Of a stretch of 64,000 nt of DNA, positions 19,701 to 28,700 are shown piece after piece. Under the pieces are notes generated by a model that was given only the letters and a program-made list of their open reading frames with translations, was not told where the DNA came from and made no database searches. Numbering within the stretch: position 1 is the stretch's first letter; every line of letters begins with the position of its first letter. The position numbers were made by a program, and so were the translations under genes. The stretch comes from Bolinopsis microptera (lineage: Eukaryota; Ctenophora; Tentaculata; Lobata; Bolinopsidae), in assembly GCF_026151205.1 (NCBI RefSeq), contig NC_087079.1, forward strand, positions 7,680,635 through 7,744,634. Direction: 5' to 3'.

Positions 19701-22700
19701 TTTCAGCTCCTTCATTGCCAAGAAGACTGTACTGCAGATAACTTATTCCAACCTACCCAAATTGTACTCTGTCTGCCCAAATATAAGAAAAATGAGCGTT
19801 ATCTCTTGATGAAGCATTAGAATTTTACGAGATGAAGTTTAGTAATATTGATGACTTATTTGTTTCTGGAATCTCAACAGTCAATCTTTCTTTGTCAGTC
19901 ATTATCCATCGTTAATGTTGATGAATATGAAAAAGAAGAGGCGTGTATACCATTCACAAGAGTTGATAAAATAATAAGCAAAAGTGTTGATATAAAAATA
20001 ACGATCAGCACTGATGATATTATGATAACAATGTTTTGACCATATTTTCATGATAAATGATAACATTTTGAGCACAAACAGCGTATACCAACAATAAAGT
20101 GTATACTATTATAAAGTTATAACTTATAATAATATGATAATATTCCTATAAAATATAATACTTAGAACTATTATCAAGCATAAGGATCACGTGATTTAAG
20201 ACTAATCCTTGACACGTGTCTAAGTTGTCTCGTGAGGATGATTACCAAGTATTTAACATGTGATAATGAGTTGTACAAAAGATGGGATAATTATCCTACT
20301 TGGAATGCAAGGAAATATTTTCTTGAATAAGCGGGTATATATCTAGCTTTTGCACATTAAGGTTGCCGTTGTTATATTGAGGATTGTTATATTGAGGATT
20401 ACAGGACAGTAGTTCTCAGTATGACAAGTTGATTCGGCGTGTGAAAATCAACAAGCCGGCTGGAGGCTAATTGACCAGCAAATGTCTGCAGAGTAGCCAC
20501 CAATTCGCCATCTCCCAAGCATCTACATATGGCTAGGTGGCCTAGTGGTTAGAGCTTCTGCTTTCTGCGCAGGAGGTCCAGGGTTCGAATCCCAGTGTCA
20601 CCTAGTTGTCACACTACCTAGGTGTGAGGGAGGTGGTTGCCTGTCAGCCTTAAATACAAATCAATCAAACAAGGAGAGAATTCTCTCCACCTTTTTTTAA
20701 ATTAAAAAAATATCATGGGATTTTTTCAAGTGTTTTGTCATCAAACTTGTATGCTTATGAATTCATCTACAAAAAGTTGAAAATATCTAGGCTAAAGAGC
20801 TCTGATAATTATACAATATACGTCATAATATAATACAAAACTGTTCAGTACAAACAACATACTAGCTGTGCACTGTGTGATGATATTCCTATGAAACACT
20901 GAATATGATATTGAGTATTATGCAATACAAGTTCAGGTTATTATGGTATACTGAACACTGCAGCATAGCACATTGTCATACATTTAGACGTTTTGATGAC
21001 ACAATAAAAACAATTACACGAGGACAAGAAGTTTACTAAGGTATGTTAACGAGCATCTGGTGATTGAGAGTGAAACTAAATCTTGAGTATTATCTAGATG
21101 ATATTTAGATACACGACATGTCATAATGAGCAGTATAAACGATTATACGATTGTCAGACTTGGAATGCAAGAAAATATTTTCTAGAATACGCCGGTATAT
21201 ATATAACTTTTGCACAGTATCAATGCCCTTCGGGGCAAGAATCATACAAAACTAACATTTGACAGATCTTCAGAATAGTAAACCAAACATATTAACTAGT
21301 TGGCCCGGCGGAAGCCGGGTCCAACAAGCCGGCTGGAGGCTTAAACCAGTACTATTCTGCAGGGAATACACCAATCTGACCATCTCAGCACTTTGGTGTG
21401 AGGGAGATGGTTGTCAGTCAATAATACTTCTAATAAAATCAGATAAAACAAGTGGAGAACCCTCCCCAACTTTTTTTGGAGCATTGGGATATGTAAAAGA
21501 GTTCTTAATATAGGTTTGGTTAACAATAAGTTTAGAATATTTAGGCTAAATAGCTCTGATAATTATACAATATACATAATATGTGCTTTCAGCAATACTC
21601 ATAAGTATTTCCGTGGCTGTGGTTGCAATGCGCCTAGTCTACTGGAATGATTCTTCGGAATTTCGCTGGATTGTACAACTTTCGTCTTGGTAGATTCCAA
21701 ACACAAGGAAATTTTCCTTCTGGTTGGTTATATACTCAATGATGGAAGTATAGTATATTGGCTATGCGCCGCTTACTAATTAAGCTTTTTCTAGTCCCCT
21801 GCTACACGGCATGTAAACAGGGATTGGCTAGTTAGAGGCGGTCCGTGTAGGCCTTACACTGTGCTTTCAGCAATAGTCATATAGTACAAAACTTTTCAGT
21901 ACAAACAACATACTAGCTACATGCACTGTGTGATGATATTCCTATGAAACACTGAATATGATATTGAGTATTATGCAAGTTCAGGTTATTATGTTATATT
22001 GAACATTGCAGCATACTAGCATAGCACATTGTCATACATTTAGACGTTTTGATGACATGATAAAAATAATTACACGAGGACAAGAAGTTTACAAAGGTAT
22101 GTTGACGAGCATCTGGTGATTGAGAGTGAAACTAAATCTTGAGTATTATCTAGATGATTTAATTAAATACACGACATGTGATAATTATAATGAGCAGTAC
22201 AAACGATTATACGATTGTCAGACTTGGAATACAAGAAAATATTTTCTAGAATACGCTGGTTTATATATAACTTTTGTACAGTAACATTGCCCTTCGGGGC
22301 ACACACAAAGAATCATACAATACTAACATTTGACAGATCTTCAGAATAGTAAACCAAACATATTAACTAGTTGGCCCGGCGAAAGCCGGGTCCAACAAGC
22401 CGGCTGGAGGCTTAAACCAGTACTATTCTGCAGGGAATTCACCAATCTGACCATCTCAGCACTACGGTGTAAGGGAGATGGTTGTCAGTCAATAATACTT
22501 CTAATAAAATCATATAAAACAAGCGGAGAACCCTCCCCAACTTTTATTGGAGCATTGGGATATTAAAAGTGTTCATAATATACCTTAATATATTATATTT
22601 AATCCAAATCTGTAAGGGACTTAAACTCCCACCCCCAACCCCCAGCATAGCACATTGTCATACATTTAGACGTTTTGATGACACAATAAAAACAATTACA

Positions 22701-25700: not shown

Positions 25701-28700
25701 GGTATATATACAACTTTTGCACAACAACATTGGGTCTATTGTAGTACTCATAATCGAACGTATAATTTAACAGAACTTCAGAATAGTCTGACAAGTTACT
25801 CCGCCGAAAGCTAGGTAGAAACGATAACTATTCTGCAGGGAATATACACCAATCTGACCATCACCCTGTGTGGGGGAGGCGGTTGTCAGTCGATAATACT
25901 CTAATAATAACAGAAAAAAACAAGGAGAGTACCCTCTCCAACTTTTTTTTGAGCATTGGGATATTTAAAAGTGTTCTTAACATACATTAAAATACATTAT
26001 ATAATAATCCAAATCTGTAGGAGATTTACCCCCCCCCCCCCCCCCCCTTTTTAATACCCAACCCTCAAACAATCCCAGCTCGGGCATGGCGAATCTTATG
26101 AACGGGCAGGAAGTCCTACAAAACTCTAGGCCACACACAGATAACGTCGATAATGTCGGAAATAATTTCGAAAGGAAAGTTTAATATCGTTATCATTATC
26201 AATGAGTTTAATATGATAACGAACGCAATGCACTTGTAGGGCGTACCTCAGGGCAACACTGCTGTCACTAATACGTTATCTGAATATATTGTCATGCTAT
26301 CTGATTAACACTGGAGATCCTGTTATGTTATCCGATTTACCCTTTAAATCAGAGTATTGAATTTTAAACGCCGTTACAAAACAATAAATTACTTGTAACC
26401 AAACAGATGCAATTATCTTCGATCAATTGAACACGGGCAGGAAAATTAACGTAAATCGTTTTACTGGCTACTGATACCCTCGATTTTCATCCTACCTTTA
26501 AAATACCGTATTAACCCTACATTCCTACACACCTACATTTACCCTTCTCTGAGAGGTCCAGTTTATATTGCACGTGTGACACTTATTTGTACCTTATGCA
26601 TCTTACGCCTGGTTATAAAGTAATGCCTGTTTAAAGTAAACATATTTGGATTTTTGATAAATAAATTATACGGGTAAATGCCTCACAGAATGGCTAGCCT
26701 CACAGAATGGCCAAATTTGTAAATGTTTTTGTAACTAATTTTTTATATAAGACTGGTAGTTTTGTGGATACCATATGAAACAAAAGTCTTCTGGCAACAC
26801 TTCCTGTGGTGAAATCATTAACTAGGACCACATTTTCTGGCATAAATATGACTGTTTATGTAGAAATTTTGAGCACTGAAAATTTGTTTTCAAATTTTTG
26901 AACTAAGTTTGCATTTTGGTGAGAACTTCTGGCACCAGTATTACAGAAGATGTTTAAAGAATAGTATTCATCAAACAATACGAACATTGCTCAATATAGG
27001 AAGAAAAAAATGCTAAAATGGCTAAACGCCTAACAAAATGGCCAAAATATGCCTCACAAAATGGCCAAAATTTAAAACTCCTTTTATTCAATGAAACAAT
27101 AAGTCTAAAGTATTCACAAGCTATTTATCATACAATAACACCCCAGATGGAGTGTTTTTACAGCCGAATGAAGGTTATAAATCATGAAATCAGGGAATAT
27201 GAACAACGCCACACAAAATGGCCATTTTTGGTGTAGGAAATTATGCCCTTTTTATTCAGTTCTAAGAAATTTCACCTATATGGGGGTGTTAACAAGGCTT
27301 ATTTATACCAGCAGCATGCCTGAAACAAGAGCCAAAGGTTTTAGAAAAATAAAAGTTTCTCGTTTTCTTTTTTTTTTGGCCATTTTGTGAGGCATTTTTT
27401 TTTTGTGAAATAATTTTTCACAGCTCAGTTTTTTCGTGAGTTTTAGGTTATTACCCCATTCCTTAATAGGTTTTCTAACAACGTGTGGTGGTATAAATTT
27501 AAAAAGTATCTCCATCACAAAATTATAGAAATTCAGATTTGGCCATTCTGTGAGGCATGTTTTTTTGGAGGAAGATTTTCCGGCCAATTTTTCTCAAAGA
27601 AAAAATGGTTATGAGATTAAATCAACCCCTGGGAAGAAAAATATGAGTGTCAACTTAGCTTCTTATGAGATAAAAAATGGAATAAAGTGTGGTTTGTGAT
27701 TTTGAGAGACCTTCCTTTTTTTGGCCATTCTGTGAGGCATATACCCGTACCAACTATTATATAAATAATCAATCTTTTGTTACTTTTAACTCTGATTCAC
27801 TAGATACAATTCAAAATCACCCTCCGCTCATCTTTCCACTGAGCTGACTCTGTATAATTATAAAAATTATAAAACTATAAGTTAATAAATAATAATAAAA
27901 GTAACTGACCTGCATGAACATGCACCGGTTGAGCATGGTTGTGAAATCCTGTTGCGCGTTGTAAACTGACACTGAAAATTATCTCGTTAAATCAAGACAA
28001 CTCTCAATTTTAGTTACTAACCAAATCTTATATTTGAAATGTACTTATATTTGAAATGTACTTATATTTGATAATAACAGCTAATTTTACGATAATAATA
28101 TGTCATGGTAGTTTTTTTCTCAGTTCATGACCATAAGAAGACAAGTTATATTAACCCATCTATCAAGTTATAGACAAATTAAAATAACAGTCACATCTGT
28201 CAGTTATGCAAAGTTCATTATTACATTATAATATTTAATTTAAATATATAATTATAATTACAACTGCTCCACAGCCCAGAATACCAGAACACCAGGTAAG
28301 TTCCACGGAATTTATTTCCAGACTAAACTGTGGTAGTTATACGGTATATATATAAATAATTATAATAGTCCCACTACCGTACCCTGCTAGTTAACAATAT
28401 TATATATAATAATACTTGATGGAAACTGGTAGGATCATGAAGCGCAAGCCACACGAACAAATTCTCTGATATTTCTATAAAACTGTTTCCTTAAAGCATC
28501 AGATAGTAGCTCGCTACATCTTCACAAATGGAATTACTTTCCGGACAAGTAGGTCTATGACAGAGGATAAAAGCTTCACTTTTTCATAGAGATCTCTCAT
28601 AGACTGATTATAATAAACAGAGTGATCTGACGCCTTGTTAACTGTAACAGAGCCATCATTATCCATATTATAATATACCACCGTCACATACTCTGATTTA

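Follow-up and report, generated by a model that had tools for sequence, protein, structure and literature searches.

What are the six related loci that lie close together in a 64,000-nucleotide stretch of the Bolinopsis microptera genome (the window), each with an upstream block ending in a TATA box, hairpins and a closing T run? A sequence-only reading had proposed six copies of a structured non-coding RNA of a class it did not recognise, transcribed from a Pol III snRNA-type promoter within an intron of a PLCL gene. The intron setting fits two exons, one coding for a C2 domain and one, at 29857-30128, that is PLC Y-box-like (the latter read by eye).

Architecture of the cluster

Direct-repeat analysis resolved the cluster into six tandem units, and the proposed arrangement was borne out: a PSE/TATA block is followed by a predicted RNA of 219-334 nt, a terminal hairpin and a T run, with the hairpin and T run (4-8 T) closing 6/6 units. 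The PSE/TATA pattern starts at 20309, 21169, 22233, 23146, 24165 and 25676, and its mean count over 100 shuffles was 0.00. The features, in window positions, are as follows.

20309..20351, + strand: copy 1 promoter (PSE, TATA and GCTTTTGCACA element; pattern with 0 mismatches, read in the sequence)
20365..20698, + strand: copy 1 putative RNA, damaged; 3' hairpin 20673-20688, T run 20692-20698
20531..20603, + strand: tRNA-like insert within copy 1, one of a dispersed family (RF00005, 34.4 bits)
20769..21168, + strand: upstream flank, repeated 5' of copies 2-6 (partial for some)
21169..21211, + strand: copy 2 promoter (PSE, TATA, AACTTTTGC; pattern match, architecture as in the RNase P gene)
21225..21477, + strand: copy 2 putative RNA, complete (folding z-score -3.8; T7 end)
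21581..21865, strand not assigned: dispersed 278-bp repeat between units, outside the RNA genes (77 genome matches)
22233..22275, + strand: copy 3 promoter (pattern match)
22289..22545, + strand: copy 3 putative RNA, complete; 3' hairpin arms 22523-22528/22533-22538, T4
23146..23188, + strand: copy 4 promoter (pattern match)
23202..23424, + strand: copy 4 putative RNA, 5' and inner hairpins deleted; 3' hairpin 23399-23414, T4
24165..24207, + strand: copy 5 promoter (pattern match)
24221..24481, + strand: copy 5 putative RNA, complete (z-score -6.0); 3' hairpin 24456-24471, T run 24478-24481
24840..24950, + strand: 3'-half fragment of a copy-1-like unit, lacking a promoter (one of nine members of repeat family D9)
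25676..25718, + strand: copy 6 promoter (pattern match)
25732..25950, + strand: copy 6 putative RNA, lacking the GCCC..GGGC 5' hairpin, inner part short (z-score -1.7)

The six units had been presented as equal copies; judged by sequence, only copies 2, 3 and 5 appear complete, and copies 1, 4 and 6 look damaged. The copy 2 RNA has its 5' hairpin at the predicted start, both the outer stem and the inner hairpins, the motif CTGCAG-N6-CACCAAT, and 3' hairpin arms at 21452-21457/21462-21467. Copy 1 lacks the GCCC..GGGC 5' hairpin, has a duplicated leader and carries the tRNA-like insert inside the RNA; the insert gave no ARAGORN call and has at least 40 genome matches (40 of 266 candidates were scored). 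In copy 6, the 3' hairpin (25924-25939) is followed by T8. A flank query (20769-21150) had seven matches in the genome, all inside the cluster. The dispersed 278-bp repeat is also arranged head to tail elsewhere, and a PSE-like stretch at ~21698-21730 (1/500 shuffles) lies inside it; we rejected a retrozyme reading of this repeat, as it had no ribozyme match.

A promoter shared with known Pol III genes

The promoter consists of a PSE with a consensus near CACAAGGAAATATTTTCT, a TATA box 11 nt on, and then AACTTTT. The predicted start lies ~30 nt from the TATA box, counted from its first T; in copies 2, 3 and 5 and several other loci this position is the G that opens a GCCC-UUCG-GGGC hairpin. 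The RNase P gene of this genome (L054; 82.8 bits with the family covariance model) has a promoter block, AACACAAGAAAATATTTTCT, that is identical to that of copy 6 at 19/20 positions (0/60 shuffles), and the downstream element is shared as well. Rfam searches of 20 PSE-pattern loci gave three matches, RNase MRP (L074, 66.8 bits) and two U6atac genes (83.3 and 79 bits), each directly 3' of a PSE/TATA block. The PSE, the fixed PSE-TATA spacing, the ACTTTT element, the start ~30 nt from the TATA box and the T-run terminator are common to the window copies and to the RNase P, RNase MRP and U6atac genes. This match, within one genome, supports assignment of the predicted promoters to the Pol III type-3 (snRNA-type) class, as had been proposed. 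The further expectation that the U6 promoter would share the PSE failed: this PSE is absent from two TATA-bearing U6 genes, which may not be the active ones. Anchored identity between U6 and the copies was mostly no higher than in shuffles (best 151/5000, copy 1 with L022), and the U6 gene L022 shares 16/20 positions with the block around the TATA box only (0/40 shuffles).

Folding and conservation of the six copies

Folding gave z-scores of -5.5 for copy 1 (a value that includes the tRNA-like insert, the best copy 1 fold lacking the outer stem), -3.8 for copy 2, -3.2 for copy 4, -6.0 for copy 5 and a weak -1.7 for copy 6; copy 3, whose RNA is 96% identical to that of copy 2, was left out. The 5' hairpin is intact in copies 2, 3 and 5 only. 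The outer stem yields no covariation signal, because it is invariant across copies 2-6 (a single gap, in copy 6) and broken in copy 1. The reported loop changes, GGAA/GAAA and UUUG/UACG/UUCG, are present in the sequence. Across the six copies the named structure has six pairs changed on both sides (8/500 shuffles). Two of these are G-U cells in a helix whose remaining pairs are disrupted in the copies concerned, another three are contributed only by copy 1, and one splits copies 2 and 3 from the rest. All six copies have a T-run terminator with no earlier T4, and 19/20 bodies, counting window copies and other loci, lack an internal T4; this is weak evidence alone, as 177/418 comparable 250-nt pieces of the window also lack T4.

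Comparison between copies shows no better conservation in the RNA bodies than in the upstream flank, and for copy 6 the body does worse (copy 2 against copy 6: 59/216 mismatches in the body versus 7/109 in the flank). The earlier claim that stems are strongly kept as sequence drifts is not supported, the signal being modest, and the function of any single window copy is only putative, since its body is no better conserved than the flank.

The conservation of the flank is what would be expected of a decaying tandem duplication, in which a single ancestral Pol III gene and its flank were duplicated together, the copies are mostly or all pseudogenes and the cluster is functionless. The insert in copy 1, the deletions in copy 4 and the missing 5' hairpin of copy 6 point the same way, as does a genome search with copy 2 DNA that found no body-only relative outside the cluster. 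Against it, copies 2, 3 and 5 retain the promoter, the 5' hairpin at the predicted start, the 3' hairpin and the terminator, and these ends recur at unlinked loci, where the 3' hairpin shows compensatory changes (below). On balance we regard decay alone as unlikely.

Related loci elsewhere in the genome

The six copies had been taken as the family; they do form a local cluster, but the family extends genome-wide, with 14 further loci that combine the promoter (degenerate in some) with a GGAGAG-type 3' hairpin. Five of these start with GCCCUUCGGGGC, as do copies 2, 3 and 5; bodies are mostly unrelated. A 3' hairpin and T run follow the promoter in 6/6 window copies, 5/44 other PSE-pattern loci and 0/2780 control pieces. 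The hairpin pattern alone occurs at 45 places in the genome (reversed pattern, 0); among 11 hairpin regions read, six have a PSE/TATA/ACTTT-like block upstream, and in the remaining five the hairpin lies in dispersed repeats and the promoter is absent. Conversely, the 5' end pattern ACTTTT-N12-TGCCCTTCGGGGC occurs at 12 places, three of them in the window (control, 2), and three loci chosen by this 5' end alone (L116-L118) all have a PSE-like element, a 3' hairpin with a compensatory base change, and a T run. Promoter, 5' hairpin and 3' hairpin occur together in copies 2, 3 and 5 and, outside the window, in L100, L108, L109 and L116-L118. Individual loci depart from the pattern: in L109 a T5 run occurs 27 nt into the body, L106 has just TTT after its hairpin, and the PSE is degenerate in L106, L107 and L112 (10-11 of 15 positions) and, by eye, in L117 and L118.

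Across 10 distinct 3' hairpins the arms pair in 57/60 cells (6/5000 arm shuffles). Whole-arm shuffles were used in place of an earlier pair count, which had found one pair changed on both sides (390/500 shuffles) and three such cells (21/500) with L093 off by one column. In that count the structure slid by -2 did about equally well (90.5% paired) and scored higher for covariation, an effect of the GA repeat that forms the stem. The better structural support comes from the hairpins of other loci.

Similarities within bodies are sparse. CACCAAT, a motif picked after the fact, occurs in 4/50 PSE or hairpin loci (L100, L103, L106 and L063, the last being the same locus as L007; L117 was added later) and in 0/1440 controls. 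L007 is linked to the cluster by its promoter and CTGCAG-N8-CACCAAT (3/20000 shuffles, picked post hoc; 62/5000 in a looser 6-mer test); aligned over its whole length with the six copies, it scored no higher than shuffles did, and neither the six-copy profile HMM nor the five-copy covariance model R1 recovered it. Together, the loci suggest that the cluster belongs to an apparently undescribed genome-wide family with a shared promoter type, constant end hairpins and a variable middle.

Could the units instead be non-autonomous mobile repeats bearing a Pol III promoter? PSE-bearing dispersed repeats do exist (L064/L065/L079, L066/L067/L070-L073 and L076-L078), as do dispersed repeats that contain the 3' hairpin without a PSE. 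However, a 401-nt unit matched only the cluster and one promoter elsewhere, the flank matched only the cluster, and retroposition would not copy an upstream promoter, which makes a mobile element very unlikely.

Comparison with known RNA classes

That the class was not recognised agrees with the searches. At the gathering threshold, Rfam matched only the tRNA-like insert in the window and nothing in the 20 loci of the PSE/hairpin family. At E<=10 the search gave 13 matches, comprising the tRNA, several miRNA models and a chance-level rest; the miRNA-model matches (best E 7e-5, below gathering) fall on a 9-bp repeat array, 24709-24831, that is not part of any copy, and inside the six RNAs nothing but the tRNA was matched. 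The 7SK model (RF00100) had no match in the cluster up to E 10 and 0 in the genome at E<=10, the RNase P and RNase MRP covariance models had none in the cluster, and a phage collection search gave no match. Telomerase RNA was tried and rejected: the longest telomere-register match in the copies is 6 nt (TTAGGG assumed), and a template needs more than one repeat.

7SK RNA is likewise a Pol III type-3 transcript with a hairpin at the 5' end and another just 5' of the 3' U run. It differs in that the family is multigene and the six copies lack a GAUC/GAUC stem, since each body has at most one GATC (one in copies 2 and 3, none in the other window copies); such a stem is present at another locus, L060, which is the better 7SK candidate. 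That a diverged 7SK, RNase P, RNase MRP, U6atac or telomerase RNA lies behind the cluster is thus very unlikely, despite the shared promoter class and 7SK-like end hairpins, given the RNase P, MRP and U6atac genes located elsewhere and the search results above. The family also differs from RNase P RNA, RNase MRP RNA and U6atac in having bodies without an Rfam match and many genes, compared with the one or two found for each. A passage of PMC8406779 gives the GAUC stem of 7SK as the HEXIM contact.

By description, the family also recalls two other groups. Nematode stem-bulge RNAs and vertebrate Y RNAs are small Pol III transcripts with an upstream promoter, constant ends and a variable middle; their two ends pair together, whereas the ctenophore family has a local hairpin at each end and mostly longer bodies. 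Dictyostelium class I RNAs have an upstream element and TATA box, conserved ends, a variable middle and many genes, but are much shorter, have one end stem, and belong to another lineage with other motifs.

A probable family with constant ends and variable bodies

We favour the reading, with a probability of about 0.72, that the cluster arose by local expansion within a multigene, lineage-specific family of Pol III type-3 genes, spread through this ctenophore genome, with constant ends and variable bodies. SNAPc and TFIIIB would recruit Pol III to the PSE/TATA promoter. The GCCC-UUCG-GGGC hairpin at the 5' end could support either end protection or a gamma-methyl-type cap. A La/LARP7-type protein may bind the U tail together with the 3' hairpin, which is of the type GGAGAG-N4-CUCUCC and lies directly 5' of the U run. 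Constant ends would let the RNAs form one shared, stable type of RNP; the partner of each RNA, either a protein or a complementary RNA, would be set by its body, which varies and in some loci contains CACCAAU. Under such a birth-and-death process, local tandem duplication would make new genes that then decay, as in the window. A more speculative extension, which we consider possible though doubtful, is a guide-like or decoy system of a few dozen Pol III genes with a shared cap-and-tail module and interchangeable target-setting bodies, its RNA set renewed through local gene duplication.

If the family is indeed undescribed, an early animal lineage would have made its own small-RNA repertoire. 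The PSE/TATA/AACTTTT promoter is also a practical key: within one genome it led to RNase MRP, U6atac, the 7SK candidate and several unnamed RNAs, so that it allows the Pol III genes of an early-branching animal to be catalogued and put to the test.

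The six-copy cluster

In a 264.65 Mb build of 232 contigs, the window occupies C8:7680635-7744634; PMC10232365 gives a k-mer estimate of ~254 Mbp for the Bolinopsis microptera genome and 13 chromosome-scale scaffolds. The sequence-only reading described six related loci sharing a promoter block and ending in a T run, and both descriptions held: the cluster consists of six direct repeats whose starts lie 860-1511 nt apart, the window has six matches to the promoter pattern vs none in 100 shuffles, and each copy finishes with the 3' hairpin and a T run (4-8 nt). An earlier T4 is absent from all six bodies, as it is from 177 of 418 similar window pieces. 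The 5' hairpin is kept in copies 2, 3 and 5 only; copy 4 has lost it together with the inner hairpins, and copy 1 contains a tRNA-like repeat with at least 40 genome matches. With copy 2 as a DNA query, the whole genome returned the six copies and one further place, L007 on contig C9, with the promoter alone in common, and the upstream flank was not found outside the cluster in a genome search.

Four of the five predicted RNAs that we folded clearly beat dinucleotide shuffles; copy 6 did so only slightly. The claim that stems survive sequence drift gets little support within the six copies. In the structure that we named, 91.4% of 233 cells pair across the six copies and six pairs have both sides changed (vs 8 of 500 shuffles), but three of these six changes are in copy 1 only, two involve G-U cells where the helix is broken, and the outer stem is invariant in copies 2-6 and broken in copy 1. 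Between copies (7 pairs compared, of 15 possible), the upstream flank is conserved as well as the bodies or better: bodies are worse for copies 2 and 6 (mismatches 59/216 in the body vs 7/109 in the flank, p 4e-6) and for copies 5 and 6 (p 6e-4), and the difference is not significant in the other five pairs. Taken alone, the six copies therefore prove little.

The promoter and known Pol III genes

A search for RNase P RNA gave one genome match (L054, 82.8 bits), upstream of which lie AACACAAGAAAATATTTTCT, a TATA box and GAACTTTTGCACAACA with the spacing seen in the cluster. A wider promoter pattern matched 80 places in the genome, compared with 22 for a reversed-pattern control, and Rfam analysis of 20 of these loci identified RNase MRP (66.8 bits) and two U6atac genes (83.3 and 79 bits), all directly downstream of the block. 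Since the block is shared with these genes, the cluster and L007 carry, judging by sequence, the Pol III type-3 promoter used by RNase P, MRP and U6atac in this genome, in agreement with the snRNA-type promoter first proposed. The U6 comparison, which the sequence-only reading had itself put forward as a test, counts against it. Among 12 U6 matches, 8 of them above cut-off, five loci had their upstream regions compared; a TATA box stands at the usual place in two (L022 and L023), and the PSE is not convincing in either when these regions are anchored on TATA. Around TATA, L022 is identical to copy 6 at 16 of 20 bases (0 of 40 shuffles). L024, L025 and L026 are U6 bodies that lack a TATA box in the expected position, possibly retrocopies.

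A probable family defined by its ends

The promoter followed by the 3' hairpin and T run is present in 6 of 6 window copies vs 0 of 2780 control pieces, and outside the window hairpin and T run also follow 5 of the 44 loci with the PSE pattern (L085, L091, L093, L096, L100). The hairpin pattern alone matched 45 places in the genome vs 0 in the control. Six of eleven hairpin regions inspected (L105-L109 and L112; scores 19.1-22.5) have an upstream PSE/TATA/ACTTT-like block, and five (scores 15.6-17.7) have none and resemble dispersed repeats, the dividing line being our own judgement. L108 and L109 start with GCCC-TTCG-GGGC as in copies 2, 3 and 5, with a TATA distance equal within one base, and L100 has GCCC-CATGC-GGGC at this position; in L106 the hairpin is followed by TTT only, and the body of L109 includes a T5. 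The 5'-end pattern ACTTTT-N12-TGCCCTTCGGGGC, allowing up to 2 mismatches, matched 12 places, 10 of them exactly (3 in the window), vs 2 in the control. A PSE-like element, a TATA-like box, and the 3' hairpin and T run are all present in the three new loci inspected, found by the 5' end alone (L116, L117, L118).

In the 3' hairpin, 99 of 102 cells pair across a set of 17 hairpins or hairpin groups. At pair 3, A-U is found in 12 and G-C in 5 (near-identical copies 2 and 3 counted as two); at pair 2, L117 has A-U. L118, outside these counts, is a further locus with G-C at pair 3. When only distinct arm pairs are taken (10 in all), 57 of 60 cells are paired, a level that 6 of 5000 arm shuffles reached. 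The sequence shows the promoter class, the context of the start, both end hairpins and the terminator, and we put the probability that these putative RNAs are a genuine Pol III family built in this way at roughly 0.7.

In U6 and 7SK, a 5'-terminal hairpin can function in gamma-methyl capping, and La or LARP7 can bind a hairpin that precedes the U tail. From these roles we propose that the hairpins would form an RNP end module common to all family RNAs, with the body giving each RNA its own partner; that the bodies are target-specific seems doubtful.

No Rfam family fits the RNAs, and none was named at gathering for any of 20 loci (among them the members up to L112 and L007), consistent with the unrecognised class first suggested. 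No study of Pol III RNAs in ctenophores was among the literature listed in our search, which does not establish absence from print. Pol III type-3 RNAs are already known as a kind; two constant end hairpins joined to many unrelated bodies are new, as far as we could see.

Bodies and origin

When all 20 members (the six copies and 14 others) were compared by blastn (E<=0.01), only two pairs outside the cluster shared bodies: L085/L105 (81% over 185 nt) and L093/L096 (78% over 156 nt). The first 30-odd bases of L106 are common to L085 and L105, matches of L116 and L118 to the copies are limited to the 5' hairpin, and L100 matches copy 1 over the 30 nt preceding the 3' hairpin. T4 is absent from 19 of 20 bodies, and CACCAAT recurs in L007, L100, L106, L117 and all six copies. 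Members are grouped at C11:12.968-12.970 Mb (L105, L106, L100), C1:11.296 Mb (two places) and C6:14.58-14.60 Mb (three places, one with 2 mismatches), paralleling the six copies on C8. The pattern looks like birth and death through local duplication.

Other PSE-driven RNAs

L007 (also L063; G000:C9:16916580) is a single gene with a cluster-type promoter and a structured RNA of ~195 nt with no Rfam name, containing CTGCAG-N8-CACCAAT and no 3' GGAGAG hairpin. L060 (G000:C5:9805834-9805868, minus) has a PSE-driven RNA, ~216 nt downstream, with a GAUC/GAUC stem near its 5' end (AACATTGATCGC...GCAGATCTGTT) and a 3' end, AGTCTGCCATTCTTTTT, that we take to resemble that of vertebrate 7SK; it is a candidate ctenophore 7SK, and the Rfam 7SK model gave no match to it. 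The ~100-nt RNA of L080 (G000:C1:15454106), closed by GGTAGGCAGCA/TGCTGCCTACC and ending in T6, recalls Y RNA in size and shape; Rfam gave no match within the RNA up to E 10. L059 and L087 (G000:C3:5972669 and 5974821) are neighbouring PSE-driven genes with similar starts and no Rfam match, the L059 RNA being GC-rich, ~290 nt, with a predicted -146 kcal/mol. L097 and L099 (C9:6266650, C11:12354961) encode related PSE-driven RNAs that end in CCTCCTTTT, have no Rfam name and have apparently complementary ends (CAGAGC.../...GCTCTG). Dispersed units also bear the PSE (L066, L067, L070-L073, L075, L094, L095); the two folded, L067 and L075, are predicted to form one long hairpin RNA (-116 and -113 kcal/mol). 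Further dispersed PSE-bearing repeat families are L064/L065/L079/L104, L088/L089/L098 and L076-L078/L083, one of them with a shorter PSE-TATA spacing.

Other features of the window

21581-21865: one unit of a 278-bp dispersed repeat, often head to tail, its 77 matches reaching 98% identity elsewhere
22790-23035: MITE-like insert in the flank of copy 4, inverted ends CTTACAGCACGG read by eye
55720-63728, plus: tandem family (D17), probably of secreted cysteine-bearing proteins of ~140 aa
60261-62462, minus: reverse-transcriptase ORF

Rfam gave no ribozyme match for the one locus of the 278-bp repeat submitted, and two D17 members had no Pfam match. Among the 120 matches listed for the reverse-transcriptase ORF, the only species-named relatives are from Mnemiopsis leidyi (67-69% identical), and another relative is 94% identical.
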